In this document: positions 2,282 through 62,283 of the stretch, in pieces
Numbering within the stretch: the first letter of the stretch is position 1
Layout of the letters: every line of letters begins with the position of its first letter
Assembly (NCBI RefSeq): GCF_963677875.1
Contig: NZ_OY782563.1
Coordinates: forward strand, 1-62,283
Reading direction: 5' to 3'
Length of the DNA: 62,283 nucleotides
DNA from: Thiomicrorhabdus sp.
GTDB lineage: Bacteria > Pseudomonadota > Gammaproteobacteria > Thiomicrospirales > Thiomicrospiraceae
Notes under the pieces: generated by a model
Database searches by the model: none
Told to the model about the DNA's origin: nothing
The model's input: the letters and a program-made list of their open reading frames with translations, nothing else
Program-made: the position numbers and the translations under genes

Positions 2282-2986
2282 TTATTTGTCTTTTTGACCT
2301 ACTACAAACCCATTACTATAGCGTAAATCATACCGGCGTGCTGAGTTTCTTAAATCGTCTGATAAAACCGGCAAAGCTCTGAGGAAACGTTGCAGATGTT
2401 CCTGCCAGTTTTCGTCACTTAAAACCACTTGTACCCCATTCTGCATCGCGATGTCCCAAACCCCGTCATCGCGCAATATCAGAGAAGCAATAGCAAGATC
2501 GGCCTTTTTCATCAACGGCTGAATCTTCGTCAACATCAGGAGAATTTCGGAAGAACGGCTGAGATCACCTTCCAGACGAATCAAATTGGTGAACTCGGAA
2601 ATATCATTCGGGTAGAAGACCACTCCTTCTCTGTTCACCAGACCTTCATTCCCCCAGCGAGCCACCGGAAACTGTTCTTGAAGACGGATATACAGCTGAT
2701 CCGGCCAGCTTCGAGTCACCGTAACCTTATCAACCCAGTCCAGCCGAGCCAGATCACCTTGAATTTCATCCAGAGGGACTTGCCAGAAAGAACGCCCCAG
2801 ATAAGGCTGCATCGCGGTTTTAATCTCCTCGGAACGAACATGGTGCAAAGGCGTCAAAACTTTAAAACTCTGAATCGGCTTAAAAAAGGGCGAATCTTCC
2901 TTACTGGAATAAACCAGCAACAAGCCGACTGCAGCAAGCAGCACCAGCAACAGAAAAATACGCAGCAACCTTTTTTTCACAACCAA
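2282..2986 (-). CDS. ftsQ: Cell division protein FtsQ
   Basis: Bitopic divisome scaffold that binds FtsB/FtsL. The 234-residue product has a short basic cytoplasmic tail (KKRLLR), one transmembrane helix (about residues 9-27, very Leu-rich) and a periplasmic part with a POTRA domain (about 40-110; RLDWVDKVTVTRSWPDQL is the typical POTRA end) and the FtsQ beta domain. It starts 2 nt after the ddl stop, so translation is probably coupled. The order ddl-ftsQ-ftsA is the standard dcw arrangement. Confidence 0.95.
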   Translation of the reverse strand: MVVKKRLLRIFLLLVLLAAVGLLLVYSSKEDSPFFKPIQSFKVLTPLHHVRSEEIKTAMQPYLGRSFWQVPLDEIQGDLARLDWVDKVTVTRSWPDQLYIRLQEQFPVARWGNEGLVNREGVVFYPNDISEFTNLIRLEGDLSRSSEILLMLTKIQPLMKKADLAIASLILRDDGVWDIAMQNGVQVVLSDENWQEHLQRFLRALPVLSDDLRNSARRYDLRYSNGFVVGQKDK

Positions 2987-2988
2987 TC

Positions 2989-3906
2989 TTACCCGTCTTT
3001 TTCACTCAGAGTCGTCAACAAGATTTCTCTGACCAACGCTTCAAACGACATTCCTCTTGCACGCGCTGCCATTGGAACCAGACTGTGATCCGTCATGCCC
3101 GGAACCGAATTCAACTCGATCAACCAAGGCTGCCCCTGCTCATCAAGCATTAAATCAACCCTTCCCCATCCTCTGGCCCCGATCACATCAAAGGCCTGCA
3201 GTACCAGTTTCTGAATAGCCAATTCAGTCTCCGGCTCCAAACCGCAAGGGCAAATATATTGCGTATCGTTGGCACGATACTTTGCTTCGTAATCGTAAAA
3301 ATCACGCGGCGTCTGTAAACGAATCAGCGGCAAGGCTTCTCCATTAAGAACCCCACCGGTATATTCTCTGCCGGTAATCCACTGTTCGATCAGTATTTCG
3401 TGATCAAATTCCTGCGCGTAGGCAACCGCCTCCTGCAATGCTTCCAGACTGTAAACCTTGCGCATTCCGATACTGGAACCTTCGTGGCACGGTTTCACAA
3501 TCACGGGAAAATCCAGATCAAAGGCCTGCAGATCAAGCGGCATCGACTCACTGACCCGAACAAACTTCGGCGTTGGCAAACCGGCACCAAGCCACATCCA
3601 TTTGGTTCGCAGCTTATCCATCGCGATCGCCGAAGATGCCATAGGGCTGCCGGTAAAAGGAACATCCAGATCATCCAGAACCGCCTGAACAACCCCGTCT
3701 TCCCCCCAGCGACCATGCAGTGCAATAAAGGCACGGTCGTATTCTCTGGCGACGGCCTGCAGATCATCAATCGACTTGACATCCAAACCATACGCGTCGA
3801 TTCCCTGAGATTTCAGGGCTTCCGTAACGGCCTTACCGCTTTTGAGAGAAATTTCGCGCTCGGCTGCTTTGCCGCCCATCAATACAGCCACTTTTCCAAA
3901 CGGCAT
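2989..3906 (-). CDS. ddl: D-alanine--D-alanine ligase
   Basis: ATP-grasp enzyme that makes the D-Ala-D-Ala dipeptide used by MurF. The 305-residue protein has the N-terminal VAVLMGGKAAEREISLKSG motif, ALHGRWGEDG near 64, the ATP-grasp loop KPCHEGSSIGMRKV near 139, and the metal-binding end IELNSVPGMTDHSLVP near 265. Length and motifs match the DdlB type found in dcw clusters. It lies 13 bp after murC; no murB gene separates the two, unlike many dcw clusters. Confidence 0.96.
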   Translation of the reverse strand: MPFGKVAVLMGGKAAEREISLKSGKAVTEALKSQGIDAYGLDVKSIDDLQAVAREYDRAFIALHGRWGEDGVVQAVLDDLDVPFTGSPMASSAIAMDKLRTKWMWLGAGLPTPKFVRVSESMPLDLQAFDLDFPVIVKPCHEGSSIGMRKVYSLEALQEAVAYAQEFDHEILIEQWITGREYTGGVLNGEALPLIRLQTPRDFYDYEAKYRANDTQYICPCGLEPETELAIQKLVLQAFDVIGARGWGRVDLMLDEQGQPWLIELNSVPGMTDHSLVPMAARARGMSFEALVREILLTTLSEKDG

Positions 3907-3919
3907 AGCTCTTTCCTTC

Positions 3920-5305
3920 TTACACTTCTTGTTGTGATTGCCAGGCTTTGGAAACCTGCCCGATATCCCCGGCTCCCATTACCAAAACCAGGTCATCATT
4001 CTCGAATAAATCTTCCGCCAGAGTTTCCAGCTGCTCGAAGTCCTCGGCATAAAATCCCTGGCCACCCCTCAAACGGGCCGCCTGCAGCAATGCCTTGGAG
4101 TCAAACTTCGGTAGATGCGCTTCTCCGGCGGCATAGACTTCCGTCAAAATCACCAGATCAGCCAGTAATAACGCCTGCACAAAATCGTCAAACAGGTCGC
4201 GGGTTCGCGTATAACGATGCGGTTGAAAAACCAGAACCAGGCGCTTATCGGGAAAAGCCGTTCGGGCAGTCGTCAGGGTTGCAGTCAATTCAGTCGGATG
4301 GTGCCCGTAATCATCAACCAGCGTCACATTTTTGCTTTTAATGCAACGTTGAGGATAGACTTCAAAACGTCGGCCGACACCGCCGAACTCCAACAATCCT
4401 TGCTGAATAGCATCAATCGAAACATCCAACTGCAAACCGACAGCGATTGCCGCCAACGCATTTAGAACGTTGTGTTCACCGGGCGTATTCAATCTTACCG
4501 GAAAGCATTCAACCCCATCAAGGCAAACATCGAAACTCATCTGTAATCCATCGGCCTGAACGTTAACGGCCCGGAGATCCGCTTCTTCGGAAAACCCGTA
4601 GGTCAAAATTTTACGAGTCAATTTCGGGAGGATATTGCGAATATTTTCATCATCGATACAAAGGATTGCCAAACCATAGAAAGGCAAGCGGTGAATGAAC
4701 TCAACAAAGGTATTTTCCAGATTTTGATAATCGCCCTGATAGGTGTCCATATGATCTTCGTCGATATTGGTCACAACCGACATCATCGGCGACAAATGCA
4801 GGAAAGAAGCATCCGACTCATCGGCTTCGGCAACCAGATAATGGCTCGATCCCAGGCGAGCATTGGAGCCGACCTGATTCAGTTTCCCACCGATAACGAA
4901 CGTTGGATCAACGCCGCCCTGAGTCAAAACAGCAGCGGTCAGGCTGGTCGTCGTCGTTTTGCCATGCGTCCCCGCAATCGCAATCCCGAAGCGCATACGC
5001 ATCAATTCAGCCAGCATCTCCGCCCGGGGAATCACCGGAATACGCGCATCTCGCGCCCAGCTCACCTCGGGATTATTCGGTGCAATGGCGGTTGAAACCA
5101 CAACAACATCCGATTGCTGAACATGTTCGGCCGCATGACCAATCTGCACTTTGGCTCCGAGAGACTGTAAGCGCTCCACTGTCGCATTACACCGGATGTC
5201 CGATCCGCTGACGACATAACCGAGGTTCAGGCATACCTCAGCAATGCCTGCCATCCCGACACCACCGATACCGACGAAATGAATCTGCTTAACTTGGTCT
5301 TTCAT
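3920..5305 (-). CDS. murC: UDP-N-acetylmuramate--L-alanine ligase MurC
   Basis: Cytoplasmic Mur ligase that adds L-Ala to UDP-MurNAc. The 461-residue protein has the N-terminal Rossmann motif GIGGVGMAGIAEV, the ATP loop GTHGKTTTTS (about residues 114-123), and DDYGHHPTE near 345, diagnostic for MurC. In the standard cluster it follows murG directly; here about 14 kb of unrelated genes lie between them, so murC begins its own transcription unit (murC-ddl-ftsQ-ftsA-lpxC). The 217-bp gap upstream is A+T-rich with promoter-like sequence but no box I can name. Confidence 0.96.
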   Translation of the reverse strand: MKDQVKQIHFVGIGGVGMAGIAEVCLNLGYVVSGSDIRCNATVERLQSLGAKVQIGHAAEHVQQSDVVVVSTAIAPNNPEVSWARDARIPVIPRAEMLAELMRMRFGIAIAGTHGKTTTTSLTAAVLTQGGVDPTFVIGGKLNQVGSNARLGSSHYLVAEADESDASFLHLSPMMSVVTNIDEDHMDTYQGDYQNLENTFVEFIHRLPFYGLAILCIDDENIRNILPKLTRKILTYGFSEEADLRAVNVQADGLQMSFDVCLDGVECFPVRLNTPGEHNVLNALAAIAVGLQLDVSIDAIQQGLLEFGGVGRRFEVYPQRCIKSKNVTLVDDYGHHPTELTATLTTARTAFPDKRLVLVFQPHRYTRTRDLFDDFVQALLLADLVILTEVYAAGEAHLPKFDSKALLQAARLRGGQGFYAEDFEQLETLAEDLFENDDLVLVMGAGDIGQVSKAWQSQQEV

Positions 5306-5522
5306 TGAGGAGCGCTCTTCCTATGCCATTTTTAATCGGCATATGATACAACGCTTTGCATCGGTAATAAATTTAAAGCATGAATAAGAATGATTGAAAG
5401 GAAACATTCGGGAACTCAAATGTCGGCAAATCAAATGGCGCGGTCTGCTCATAAGAAGCGAGCAGTCGAAACAGGATGGTGCGCCCAAATCCGGCAAGAA
5501 TTCGGGCGACCGACCAGAAGGA

Positions 5523-6752
5523 TTAGAGCAGCATCTCTCTGGCTTCCTCAACCGAGGCGACCAGACGATCGATGTCGTCGAAGTTATTGTAAACCCCGAA
5601 AGAGGCACGAACCGTAGCAGGCACCTTAAAATGCTGCATAACCGGCATGGCGCAATGATGGCTGGCGCGAACGGCAATCCCGTCCTGATCCATCAGTGTT
5701 GCCATATCATGCGGATGGACACCATCAACAATAAAGGACACCACTGCACCTTTATGATCCGCTTCACCGATAATTTGCAATCCATCGATCGATTGCAGCT
5801 TTTCGGTTGCATAAGCCAGTAAACTTTCCTCATAAGCAGAGATATGACTCAGGCCAATACCTTGAATAAAACGCATCGCAGCGGCCAGCCCGATGGCCCC
5901 CGAGATATGCGGCGTTCCAGCTTCGAATTTGTAAGGCAGGACATTGTATTCCGTCTTATCGAACGTCACCGAATAAATCATATCCCCTCCGCCCTGATAC
6001 GGCGGCATGGCTTCCAGCAGCGCTTCTTTGGCATACAGAACACCGATCCCGGTCGGCCCGTACATTTTGTGACCGGACAAGGCATAAAAATCGCAATCCA
6101 AATCCTGAACATCAACCGACATATGCGGTGTTGCCTGGGCACCATCCACCAGAATTTTCGCCCCGACGGAATGAGCGATTTCCGCCATCTCCTTTACCGG
6201 GTTAATCGTACCAAGCGCATTGGACATATGAGTTACAGCCAACAGTTTGGTTTTTTGCGAAACCAGTCCTTTCAACGCATTCAGACAGACTTCGCCTTTC
6301 TGATTCATCCGCAAAACGGTCAGATGGATACCGATCTGATCGCGTAGCAATTGCCACGGAACAATATTGGAATGATGTTCCATTTCGGTCACAATCACTT
6401 CATCGCCTGCCTGCAGTTGACTCCGCGCCCAGCTATGCGCCACCAGATTAATCGCCTCGGTCGTACCACGAACAAAAACAATCTCCCGCGTCGAAGCCGC
6501 ATTGAGAAATGCCCGGGTTGTTTCACGCGCGCCTTCGTAAAGTTCGGTGGCTCTCTCACTAAGGCCATAAACGCCGCGATGGACATTCGCATTCTGCAGG
6601 CGGTAGTAATCGTCCAGCGCTTCAATCACCGACAAAGGTTTTTGCGAGGTCGCTCCATTATCCAAATACACCAAAGGCTGACCATTTTCCAGCTGCTGCA
6701 ATATTGGGAATTGCGCCCGAACCTGAGAAAAATCGACTGTTGAATTCTGCAT
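5523..6752 (-). CDS. sufS: Cysteine desulfurase SufS
   Basis: PLP enzyme that takes sulfur from cysteine for Fe-S cluster assembly. I chose the ATG at 6752 (MQNSTVDFSQVRAQFPIL, 409 residues) rather than an upstream in-frame start that would run into sufD; this leaves 2 nt between the genes. The PLP lysine lies in LSGHKMYGPTGIGVLY and the catalytic cysteine in VRASHHCAMPVM near the C-terminus, so this is the group II (SufS/CsdA) type. No sufE or sufU partner is found in this cluster. Last gene of the sufBCDS operon. Confidence 0.95.
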   Translation of the reverse strand: MQNSTVDFSQVRAQFPILQQLENGQPLVYLDNGATSQKPLSVIEALDDYYRLQNANVHRGVYGLSERATELYEGARETTRAFLNAASTREIVFVRGTTEAINLVAHSWARSQLQAGDEVIVTEMEHHSNIVPWQLLRDQIGIHLTVLRMNQKGEVCLNALKGLVSQKTKLLAVTHMSNALGTINPVKEMAEIAHSVGAKILVDGAQATPHMSVDVQDLDCDFYALSGHKMYGPTGIGVLYAKEALLEAMPPYQGGGDMIYSVTFDKTEYNVLPYKFEAGTPHISGAIGLAAAMRFIQGIGLSHISAYEESLLAYATEKLQSIDGLQIIGEADHKGAVVSFIVDGVHPHDMATLMDQDGIAVRASHHCAMPVMQHFKVPATVRASFGVYNNFDDIDRLVASVEEAREMLL

Positions 6753-57257: not shown

Positions 57258-57593
57258 TTAATCATCTAAATCAAGCTGTTTATAGTTAATTCCCAAAGCT
57301 TCAGCAAAAGCTTTTTGAGTTTTAACACCTACTCTTTCAGGGTGTTTTTCAATGTCAGATATTCTTGTTTGAGACACTTCCAATTTCTCGGCCATTTCTT
57401 TTTGTGTAAATCCTAAATGTTTTCTCCATGCGGCATAAAGAGATAAATCTTTTTCAAACATTAAATCTACTACTTCTTGTGGAAAATAGATTTTTTCATT
57501 TGTTAAAGATAAATATTCCTCATAAGGTAAAACGGCAAAAGCTGGTTTACCACCCTGCTCAATGATTTGTACATTAGTATGTGCGTTCATCAC
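57258..57593 (-). CDS. Antitoxin with Phd-like start and XRE helix-turn-helix
   Basis: 111 residues. The N-terminal 30 residues (VQIIEQGGKPAFAVLPYEEY) look like the Phd/YefM antitoxin core, and the C-terminal half is an XRE HTH (LGFTQKEMAEKLEVSQTRIS near 60-79). It overlaps the end of the toxin gene by 20 bp, toxin first, as in HigBA systems. Likely neutralises the toxin and represses the operon. A+T-rich. Confidence 0.8.
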   Translation of the reverse strand: MMNAHTNVQIIEQGGKPAFAVLPYEEYLSLTNEKIYFPQEVVDLMFEKDLSLYAAWRKHLGFTQKEMAEKLEVSQTRISDIEKHPERVGVKTQKAFAEALGINYKQLDLDD

Positions 57594-57834
57594 GTTTTTT
57601 CACCTCTTCAATAAAAACAATTTCAATTTCATCATTAACATTAAAAAAGACTCTAAAGTCTCCAACTCTTAATCTATATTCATAATCATGGTTTTTTAAA
57701 GCTTTAACATTTTTTGATTTTTGAAATTCTGGTAACTCATCTTTAACGGCTAATCTAATTTTATTAGCCATGATTTTATTTTTAAGTTTCATCAATTGTT
57801 TTAAAGCTTTCTTTTCCCATTCAACTTTAAACAT
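57574..57834 (-). CDS. RelE/ParE superfamily toxin
   Basis: 86 residues from ATG 57834 (MFKVEWEKKALKQLMKL); an upstream in-frame start adds an unlikely tail. The RelE-like pattern is present: LKNHDYEYRLRVGDFRVFFNV with the basic cluster, and IEIVFIEEVKKRDERTY at the end. It may cut mRNA on the ribosome or inhibit gyrase; the sequence does not decide. First gene of the pair. It lies directly inside the att site, where toxin-antitoxin pairs often stabilise elements. Confidence 0.8.
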   Translation of the reverse strand: MFKVEWEKKALKQLMKLKNKIMANKIRLAVKDELPEFQKSKNVKALKNHDYEYRLRVGDFRVFFNVNDEIEIVFIEEVKKRDERTY

Positions 57835-57998
57835 AAGTTTTACACTCAAATTATTTTCATAATGACCATTATAACACAAAAGCTATATTTTTATAATATA
57901 AAACCATATTATTAAATATAGTCTCTTTTTAGAAATGATTTTACATATCAAATGCTAATAGTTATCATTAGAGAGAAATAGGCTTAATTGGTATTTAT

Positions 57999-58874: not shown

Positions 58875-58888
58875 ATATGCACTTTTTT

Positions 58889-58952
58889 ACTTGTAAATTT
58901 ATACATAATATGTAAATATGTGCTTGTAGGAATTTACAAGTATATATTTACA
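58889..58952. promoter_or_regulatory. Repressor operator array
   Basis: TGTAAAT occurs at 58892-58898 and 58911-58917, and its reverse complement ATTTACA at 58932-58938 and 58946-58952. Outer arms extend to ACTTGTAAATT (58889-58899) and AATTTACAAGT (58931-58941), an 11-bp inverted repeat. They lie just upstream of the repressor gene and about 80 bp before the first early gene, the expected place for both promoters. Confidence 0.65.
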
Positions 58953-59014: not shown

Positions 59015-59027
59015 GACGAGGTACGAA
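59015..59027 (+). promoter_or_regulatory. Ribosome binding site motif GACGAGGTACGAA of early gene 1
   Basis: GACGAGGTACGAA ends 3 bases before the ATG at 59031. The last 10 bases recur before the ssDNA-binding gene (59780-59789) and all 13 occur inverted in the hairpin loop region (60294-60306). The conserved block is larger than a Shine-Dalgarno box needs. Confidence 0.75.
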
Positions 59028-59774: not shown

Positions 59775-59791
59775 TCGTAGAGGTACGAAAA

Positions 59792-60154: not shown

Positions 60155-60181
60155 GAGGGTGTCCAGTCGAGGGCGAAAAAG

Positions 60182-60209
60182 GGTTAAAACCAAGTTTTAA
60201 TTCTTTTTT
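60182..60209 (+). terminator. Terminator after the ssDNA-binding gene
   Basis: GGTTAAAAC pairs with GTTTTAATT (7 Watson-Crick plus 2 G-U pairs), 3-nt loop, then CTTTTTT. Ends the early operon. Confidence 0.75.
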
Positions 60210-60251
60210 GTCCAACCAAGCGATAGCGCGGAAGCTGGCAAAGCTAATGAG

Positions 60252-60341
60252 TTAATTAAAAAGGTGGTGTTTGTGGTGTCGAGTCTGTCTTGATTCGTAC
60301 CTCGTCAGATTCGGGGTTATGAATGCCACCTTTTTAATTAA
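60252..60341 (+). ncRNA. Nested hairpin with loop antisense to two early-gene ribosome sites (candidate)
   Basis: Outer stem: TTAATTAAAAAGGTGG (60252-60267) is a perfect 16-bp inverted repeat of 60326-60341. Inside it, TCGAGTCTG (60279-60287) pairs with CAGATTCGG (60306-60314), 9 bp with two G-U, and leaves an 18-nt loop, 60288-60305. Twelve bases of the loop (TTCGTACCTCGT) are the exact complement of 59016-59027, the ribosome site of early gene 1; ten match the ssDNA-binding gene site. As plus-strand RNA this would be an antisense loop. It may instead act as DNA in the viral strand. No promoter identified. Confidence 0.5.
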
Positions 60342-60373
60342 TTTGAGAATTTAAAAATGGGGTTACTGGCTTT

Positions 60374-60539
60374 AATAGATGCTCAATGGGGGCTGGGGAG
60401 AATCCCCAGATAGGCCGGAGGCCGTAGACTTTTCAATCTCAACTCCACACGGCTAGATTGGCACGCGTTCACGGTATCAACCGCCACCGCTTCCATCTAT
60501 TCGCGTCTAGCCAGCCCCTTCAAGCCCCTTGTGGGCTTG
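60374..60539 (+). other. G+C-rich multi-hairpin region, candidate phage origin or packaging signal
   Basis: Several stems in an otherwise A+T-rich element. Local: CTGGGGA/TCCCCAG (60393-60409, 3-nt loop), GGCC/GGCC (60413-60423), CAAGCCC/GGGCTTG (60521-60539, 5-nt loop). Long-range: AATAGATG (60374-60381) with CATCTATT (60494-60501), GGGGCTGG (60389-60396) with CCAGCCCC (60511-60518), GGCTAGA (60451-60457) with TCTAGCC (60506-60512). No gene. Filamentous phages keep their origins and packaging hairpin in such an intergenic region. Confidence 0.55.
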
Positions 60540-60575
60540 AGCGTCGCGGACTCATTACATAGTTGGAGTTAAAAA

Positions 60576-61283: not shown

Positions 61284-61361
61284 ATGTTGTCTGTGCAAGA
61301 TATTTACGTTCTCGGCTGTTTATTGGCCTTGGCGGTTATGTTTGCACAGGCTTCACGCTAG
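61284..61361 (+). CDS. Tiny hydrophobic protein (pVII/pIX-like minor coat candidate)
   Basis: 25 residues (MLSVQDIYVLGCLLALAVMF followed by AQASR), one membrane helix, 3 bp after the coat gene. Ff minor coat proteins pVII and pIX are about 32-33 residues of this type. No clear ribosome site; translational coupling to the coat gene is possible. Confidence 0.5.
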   Translation: MLSVQDIYVLGCLLALAVMFAQASR

Positions 61362-61379
61362 CCCGAAAGGGCTTTTTTT
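61360..61379 (+). terminator. Terminator after the coat genes
   Basis: AGCCC/GGGCT stem with a GAAA tetraloop and seven T. It overlaps the stop of the tiny hydrophobic gene. Ff phages also have a terminator between gVIII and gIII. Confidence 0.85.
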
Positions 61380-61420: not shown

Positions 61421-62283
61421 ATGAAATTTACTTCTAATACTTTATTGATTTTATTTTTATCATTTATATCTTTTGATGCTTTTGCCCTTGCGGGTTATAA
61501 AAATTCTTGTTGTGTTGGTTATACTGCTGATTCAAGTGGTGCTACAAGTGGTTGTAGAGATGCTGCTACTCCTGGTACAAAAGCTGACAAGATTTATCCT
61601 TATTTGAATGGTACCAGTGCTAGTACTAACTATTACCATTTATGTGCTATACCTGCAGGCGAATCTTATTCAGACGAATATGCTTGGGCGATTGGTGATA
61701 ATGATCAAGATGGTATTCAAAATCAATATGATGAAGATCCTTATGTTGTTAGACCGGTTCTTTCCGAAGATACTCCTGACGACGATGGTGACGGCATCTC
61801 TAATGAAAATGATAAATGTCCTAATCAGATCGGTATCGGCCAAGATGGAACTGGTTACTATGCTTTAGACGGATGTTGGCACGGCTATGATTACGACGGC
61901 GACGGTCTTTATAATTACGAGGATCCCAATCCTGAAGTAATTGATCAGCCGGATTATGACACATCCGGTGGCGACACATCCGGTGGCGACACATCCGGCG
62001 GCGACACATCCGGCGGCGACACATCCGGCGGCGACACATCCGGCGGCGACACATCCGGCGGCGACACATCCGGCGGCGACACATCCGGCGGCGACACATC
62101 CGGCGGCGACACATCCGGCGGCGACACATCCGGCGGCGACACATCCGGCGGCGACACATCCGGCGGCGACACATCCGGCGGCGACACATCCGGCGGCGAT
62201 ACACCAGAAGACGACACACCAGAAGACGACACACCAGAAGACGACACACCAGAAGACGACACACCAGAAGACGACACTTCTGT
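61421..62283 (+). CDS. Adsorption-type phage surface protein with DTSGG repeats (C-terminus outside window)
   Basis: Open from ATG 61421 to the window edge, at least 287 codons without a stop. Signal peptide about 1-23 ([15 protein letters not shown]). A cysteine-containing domain follows (Cys31, 32, 46, 72, then KCPNQ and GCWHG). Three Asp-rich calcium-site-like segments, [31 protein letters not shown] and [15 protein letters not shown], resemble thrombospondin type 3 repeats. From 61958 come 16 DTSGG units, then five DTPED units. Position after the coat gene and the glycine-rich linker fit the pIII adsorption protein. No ribosome site is clear. Confidence 0.75.
61958..62197 (+). repeat. 15-bp tandem repeat, 16 copies (DTSGG)
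   Basis: Unit GACACATCCGGCGGC. Units 1-2 carry GGT instead of GGC at the fourth codon; units 3-16 are identical. The low divergence points to recent expansion or homogenisation. The unit is a multiple of three, so changes in copy number keep the frame. Confidence 0.95.
62198..62272 (+). repeat. 15-bp tandem repeat, 5 copies (DTPED)
   Basis: Unit GACACACCAGAAGAC, first copy with GAT. Related in period and first six bases to the DTSGG unit but with a changed second half. After it the frame continues DTS to the window edge. Confidence 0.93.

Follow-up and report, generated by a model that had tools for sequence, protein, structure and literature searches.

Can the loop of a phage hairpin hold back translation of the phage's own genes by base pairing? 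This question is raised by a long hairpin in a filamentous prophage of Thiomicrorhabdus sp., whose loop carries the complement of ribosome sites that belong to the same phage. We analysed a window of 62,283 nt, meaning the whole stretch of DNA under study, which is an entire contig (C2, NZ_OY782563.1) of a genome of 2.58 Mb.

A filamentous prophage interrupted by the contig end

The last 3.7 kb of the window is the first part of the prophage, here called W, which breaks off at the contig end inside a 15-nt tandem repeat of its minor coat gene. This repeat occupies 61955-62283, with GDTSG units followed by a second unit type. The remainder of W is most likely the start of contig C3 (locus L007), which holds, in order, an open frame for the putative end of the minor coat gene, a small membrane gene, Zot, secretin, Rep and integrase. 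Zot-family proteins are inovirus assembly ATPases, and the whole genome has one Zot match. On C3 the W secretin is split into two open frames (1729-2379 and 2460-3182) and so is Rep (3331-3735 and 3698-4750), from either decay or sequencing error.

The features that the argument needs are these:

59015..59027, plus strand: site 1, GACGAGGTACGAA, ahead of gene 1 (start 59031), 13/13 complementary to the loop
59031..59381, plus strand: gene 1, 116 aa, the first gene beyond the divergent repressor gene and called 'early' solely from its place
59780..59789, plus strand: site 2, GAGGTACGAA, ahead of the putative ssb gene (start 59792), 10/10 complementary to the loop
59792..60154, plus strand: putative ssDNA-binding gene ('ssb'), 120 aa, named from its place and size
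60155..60575, plus strand: intergenic region holding the hairpin, 421 nt
60249..60344, plus strand: long hairpin, outer stem 60252-60267/60326-60341, inner stem 60279-60287/60306-60314
60288..60305, plus strand: apical loop, 18 nt; 60294-60306 (TTCGTACCTCGTC) complements the ribosome sites, with its last base already part of the stem
C3:613-625 (L007), one base upstream of the start codon of Zot: site 3, GACGAGGTACGAA, an identical 13-mer

A family search with gene 1 gave nothing above cut-off, and its structure model (pLDDT 36) was given no weight. The putative ssb had no match above cut-off in Pfam or PHROG and its beta-rich model is of low confidence (pLDDT 63), too weak to carry weight for kinship with gene V protein. 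Between gene 1 and the HTH repressor gene on the minus strand, overlapping inverted repeats at 58888-58952 are candidate operators; in the related prophage described below, a repeated palindrome, AACTCCA-TGGAGTT, occupies the corresponding position. Two small overlapping genes adjoin the prophage, at 57258-57593 and 57574-57879 (minus), and from their translations we take them to resemble an HTH antitoxin and a RelE/HigB-type toxin.

A hairpin that folds on the plus strand

The first-pass annotation of this hairpin had described a perfect 16-bp outer stem and, within it, an inner stem with an 18-nt loop. Both are present: the arms 60252-60267 and 60326-60341 are 100% complementary, and 60279-60287 pairs with 60306-60314 around 60288-60305. 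RNA folding of 60210-60360 gave z = -5.77, and none of 200 shuffles folded as well. When GUACCUC was held open, the RNA fold paired 60249-60277 with 60316-60344 and kept the inner stem, with many G-U pairs and at a cost of 1.0 kcal/mol.

The hairpin folds at -41.4 kcal/mol on the plus strand versus -25.4 kcal/mol on the minus strand, and the homologous hairpin of the related prophage R at -34.2 versus -21.2 kcal/mol. Among the 28 consensus pairs, 10 are G-U in W and 9 in R, with 6 common to both phages. Because the plus strand folds far better, a minus-strand site or a symmetric cruciform is argued against. The bias does not tell RNA from viral ssDNA; M13 5500-5580, which we take to hold the packaging hairpin of that phage, has the same one (-55.1 versus -39.2 kcal/mol, 5 G-U).

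A scan for sigma-70 sites and for terminators with loops of 3-8 nt predicted neither a plus-strand promoter nor a terminator at the hairpin; a terminator-like site lies after the coat gene, at 61360-61373. Rfam scores at the hairpin stayed below gathering, the best being a microRNA model, presumably of plants or animals, with 25.6 bits versus 90. Very strong G+C-rich hairpins lie directly ahead of Rep in both phages (W, L007 on C3, ~3200-3330; R, L005, ~2390-2480) and are candidates for the plus-strand origin or for a terminator after secretin; with a stronger hairpin at that place in both W and R, the hairpin studied here is less likely to be the plus-strand origin. The other half of the intergenic region, 60376-60560, is also G+C-rich and structured, lacks an evident counterpart in R, whose intergenic region has only 214 nt, and is a possible minus-strand origin.

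The loop complements three ribosome sites in W

Complementarity to the starts of gene 1 and ssb had been reported in the first-pass annotation, and both matches were confirmed. At gene 1 it covers 12 nt (59016-59027), or 13 nt (59015-59027) when the stem base of 60294-60306 is counted; at the putative ssb, the first 10 nt of TTCGTACCTCGTC complement 59780-59789, within a site that reads GTAGAGGTACGAA in full. A third site, at Zot on contig C3, had been missed. The 13-mer GACGAGGTACGAA occurs three times in the 2.58-Mb genome (two forward, one reverse), all in W: one copy each at gene 1 and Zot, and an inverted one in the hairpin. A control with the reversed word gave 0. Likewise, GAGGTACGAA followed by 0-4 nt and ATG has three copies in the genome, all in W, with 0 for the control. 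Five of the seven bases that the sites share (GAGGTAC) are Shine-Dalgarno core, and the motif is absent at the W secretin and at the Zot of R.

A related prophage keeps the hairpin and changes loop and sites together

We found a homologous hairpin in R, a prophage of Thiomicrorhabdus cannonii (G023:C5; L005, minus strand), a genome of the same genus as the W host. The Rep of R is 61% identical to the second W Rep piece and its ssb 47% identical to that of W, and the two Zot proteins have 23% identity over 136 positions. The first early gene of R does not align with W gene 1 and weakly matches W gene 2 (31% of 39). Unlike the split W copies, the secretin and Rep of R are each one frame.

The R hairpin lies downstream of ssb and is identical to that of W in 57 of 106 columns. 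With the W structure imposed on the alignment, 93.2% of cells are paired. Two-sided changes fall on 8 of 39 stem pairs, a number reached by 3 of 500 shuffles (mean 4.1), and slid versions gave 1-2. The consensus fold leaves the 18-nt loop open, and the longest invariant block, GTACCTCG, lies inside it. The pairing letters are thus predicted to be open in W and in the two-sequence consensus; in R's own minimum-energy fold they are hidden, ACCUC being buried against GGGGU, and the open form costs 6.5 kcal/mol.

The 14.9-kb R stretch holds five copies of GAGGTAC. Four stand at gene starts (first early gene, ssb, secretin and a small gene that follows Rep), and the fifth is the inverted copy in the hairpin. 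An unpaired loop stretch complementary to the ribosome sites of at least two messengers is found in both phages, with 13, 13 and 10 nt in W and at least 7 exact nt at each of four sites in R.

The letters differ between the phages in a matched way. In W the sites read GACGAGGTACGAA (gene 1, Zot) and GTAGAGGTACGAA (ssb) facing the loop TTCGTACCTCGTC; in R they read AAAGAGGTACTAA (gene 1, ssb), GGTGAGGTACCAA (secretin) and AAGGAGGTACCAT (small gene) facing TTGGTACCTCGCC. The letter after GAGGTAC is G at all three W sites, opposite a loop C, and T, T, C and C at the R sites, opposite a loop G, so that it is paired in 7/7 sites, two of them as G-U. At the R secretin, 13/13 positions pair with the R loop (one G-U); R gene 1 and ssb have an AAA in common that is unpaired with it.

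Loop-only duplex energies were better with a phage's own loop than with the loop of the other phage in 7/7 cases, the seven not being independent where sites have letters in common. For W the own and cross values were -19.9 versus -15.5 (gene 1), -16.8 versus -13.4 (ssb) and -19.9 versus -15.5 (Zot); for R they were -14.9 versus -12.4 (gene 1), -17.0 versus -14.6 (ssb), -24.0 versus -12.9 (secretin) and -16.7 versus -12.1 (small gene). Dimer folding, a method that cannot represent loop-loop pairs, gave no gain for the sites. The genes that carry the motif are barely or not at all recognisable as homologues between the two phages, so simple inheritance of a single ribosome site does not account for the pattern.

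For the first-pass annotation, related phages whose ribosome sites change while the loop does not change to match would have counted against its proposal. In the one relative compared, the letters that differ favour its proposal: loop and site letters match in 7/7 sites and the stem is kept by compensatory changes, with the exact matches of R not significant when taken alone (P 0.09 and 0.83).

The match exceeds chance in W

A chance of roughly one in ten thousand had been suggested for the 13-base match; for the broader question this overstates the case. We shuffled the W intergenic region 5000 times at the dinucleotide level and compared it with 13 phage start regions: a best exact complement of at least 13 had P = 0.0014 and a third-best match of at least 10, in the same set, P = 0.0018. 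The feature in W is thus beyond chance at the 0.001-0.002 level before any relative is considered. Among 75 host start regions the longest exact match to the W loop was 8 (one at 8, one at 7). By duplex energy, none of the 75 was as strong as W gene 1 or Zot and one was as strong as W ssb; for R, the numbers were 1 for secretin, 3 for ssb, 6 for gene 1 and 8 for the small gene.

We then scanned 35 loci blindly for the place that matches most ribosome sites. In W this place was the hairpin loop, with matches of [13,13,10], and in R it was exactly the homologous loop, with [10,8,7,7]. None of the 33 other loci reached 13 with its second match or 10 with its third, a set in which five are fragments of ~3-5 kb, some share a genome and L018-L020 are largely non-phage. 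Second matches of 10 occurred in L019 and L020. A prophage in G024 reaches the same [10,8,7,7] as R, though within its secretin gene, and L070 and L074 had single matches of 22 and 16. The scan gave no comparable loop/site match in M13, IKe, Pf3, Cf1c, VGJ or four Pf phages. Loops before ssb in Pf4 and Pf1 look Shine-Dalgarno-like by eye and were set aside, since the best place there matches only two start regions, with 8-9 nt.

Beyond W and R, the genomes and collections searched held no further carrier of the arrangement. Searches with ssb and Rep in viral_contigs, and with ssb in genome_contigs, returned no relatives; ssb in 62 family genomes and 369 class genomes returned W and R only. The loop pattern had 0 matches in viral_contigs and 4 in genome_contigs, namely R and records titled Acidobacteria, Chloroflexi and Puniceicoccales. 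A covariance model of both hairpins, run on the 62 family genomes, found W, R and a weak match on the opposite strand of W. Zot was found in 5 of the 62 family genomes; of these G024 and G039 were inspected and G060 was left out. Rep in 398 phylum genomes gave 22 places in 18 genomes outside its own, all distant; stretches at 18 of the 22, plus G222, were taken in and 3 were left out. The genus has a third filamentous prophage (L032, G024:C1:278000-296000) with a Zot that resembles that of W by eye; it is without a gap after its putative ssb gene and so was not comparable.

A possible antisense brake and its alternatives

The explanation that we favour, with a probability of about 0.42, is that W is a Pf1-related filamentous phage in which the loop of a plus-strand RNA hairpin blocks the ribosome sites of the phage's own genes. 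The hairpin, downstream of the early and ssb genes, would be copied into plus-strand RNA by a transcript that spans gene 1, gene 2, ssb and the hairpin and might extend to 61360-61373. Its open loop, UUCGUACCUCGU, would act as an antisense 'anti-ribosome-site' and pair with GAGGUACGAA where ribosomes bind the messengers of gene 1, putative ssb and Zot, keeping them off; pairing with gene 1 and ssb could be in cis or in trans, and with Zot it would be in trans. Because the hairpin comes from the very genome and transcript that carry the genes under its control, more copies would mean stronger repression, as a negative feedback. Letters, predicted structure, three sites in W and conservation with matched changes in one relative are the observations from which we infer transcription, pairing in cells, repression and its purpose. 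The antisense proposal of the first-pass annotation thus gains matched changes in R, compensation in the stem and a third target, Zot; the best fold of R, which hides the key letters, weighs against it. As for purpose, the annotation had suggested timing of the change from replication to packaging. The sites in W (early gene, ssb, Zot) and in R (early gene, ssb, secretin, small gene after Rep) fit general dosage control equally.

Much of the same pattern could come from one phage protein, such as the putative ssDNA-binding protein, that recognises GAGGTACNAA at the ribosome sites and for which the inverted copy in the hairpin would be a further site or a decoy. A shared protein motif explains the matched letters nearly as well as base pairing does, R gene 1 and ssb have 13 letters in common of which three are unpaired with the loop, and in Ff the gene V protein is described as binding an mRNA operator and repressing translation of gene II (excerpt of PMC5405960). 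Such a protein would, however, meet the complement of its motif in the loop and not the motif itself, since it is the plus strand that folds (G-U makes up 9-10 of the 28 consensus pairs). The sites also lie exactly on the Shine-Dalgarno core at the seven starts, and two of the deviations of R from the loop complement are wobble-compatible. Our analysis makes this alternative unlikely, if far from negligible. Nearly the same weight goes to the idea that the hairpin is an ssDNA packaging signal whose loop is kept for packaging, the ribosome-site match being a by-product without regulation. It is a long plus-strand hairpin in an intergenic region, M13 5500-5580 has the same strand bias and G-T/G-U pairs, and the role of origin could fall to the other strong hairpin, ahead of Rep; in M13 the packaging signal is regarded as a hairpin that the pV coat leaves exposed (PMC10480500). 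This leaves unexplained the W sites of 13, 13 and 10 nt and the matched changes in R; the scan showed no match of this kind in the nine phages named above, M13 included, and as a sole explanation we find it rather unlikely. The hairpin might serve in packaging in addition to regulation, or in packaging only.

To our knowledge, there is no precedent for an ssDNA hairpin loop that pairs with the ribosome sites of messengers, which counts against the idea that the loop acts as DNA in the hairpin of progeny strands. This idea uses the same letters and structure as the RNA reading. With DNA parameters the G-T-rich apex becomes weaker, and the apex predicted for W takes another form, with two arms. 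A packaging hairpin would be both exposed and abundant, according to the excerpted text of PMC10480500. The exposed hairpin of each finished, coated ssDNA genome might then double as an antisense whose loop catches early and assembly messengers at their ribosome sites, and in this way the phage would count its progeny by base pairing; we consider this very improbable. Chance, aided by the Shine-Dalgarno core, is hardly more credible. Any ACCTC loop would match many ribosome sites, R taken alone is not significant, in 2 of the 33 other loci (L019, L020) one place matches two ribosome sites with at least 10 nt each, the four numbers of R recur in G024, and longer single matches (22 and 16) exist in L070 and L074. 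The shuffle probabilities for W (0.0014 and 0.0018) speak against it, as do the failure of all 33 loci to reach 13 at a second site or 10 at a third, the independent choice of the homologous loop as the best place in R, and own duplexes that beat cross duplexes in 7/7.

Relation to known systems

Hairpin loops that face several ribosome sites are known. In Staphylococcus aureus RNAIII, UCCC loops pair with the ribosome sites of several mRNAs (PMC3861533, as excerpted). The likeness lies in a hairpin loop with anti-Shine-Dalgarno letters that faces several ribosome sites; W differs in being a single hairpin, in a filamentous phage, directed at the phage's own genes, with longer exact matches (13, 13 and 10 nt), and in being known from sequence alone. 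Kinship in sequence with RNAIII is not expected, and we claim no membership in a known RNA family. With Ff gene V control of gene II, W has in common translational feedback in a filamentous phage at the ribosome-site region (PMC5405960, in excerpt); the Ff agent is a protein whereas the one proposed for W is a nucleic-acid loop, and the sites are on other genes. T4 gp32 is another ssDNA-binding protein described as repressing translation (excerpt of PMC535899).

Like the Ff packaging hairpin, that of W is a long plus-strand intergenic hairpin, with the same strand bias as M13 5500-5580. Unlike it, the W hairpin lies after ssb and not after gene IV, its loop complements ribosome sites and its packaging role is putative. 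W and R also resemble the Pf1-like phages (Primolicivirus). A tblastn search with R Rep, to which the W piece is 61% identical, found 25 phage records, 23 of them covering at least 80% of the query, with 21.8-23.9% identity among the matches listed, and the order ssb - coat - CoaA - Zot - Rep - integrase is similar. They differ in that the intergenic region of W and R follows ssb (in Pf it precedes ssb) and in having a secretin gene of their own, judged from the annotation of the Pf records. Pf1, Pf4-type, Pf8 and 62-2 have no comparable loop.

Among open-licence PubMed Central titles and abstract openings, a body of text that most subscription papers lie outside, we found no report of a filamentous-phage RNA of this kind. 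A loop against several ribosome sites is a kind already known; what would be new is its occurrence in a filamentous phage, which is plausible and unproven. Because two natural sets of loop and sites with different letters exist, direct testing is possible. Translational control in filamentous phages, as described in the excerpts cited, is the work of the ssDNA-binding protein. Collectively, the arrangement in W and in the diverged R points to an antisense translation brake that may be built into the phage. If true, a loop that addresses several of the phage's own ribosome sites would be a second solution to the same control problem.
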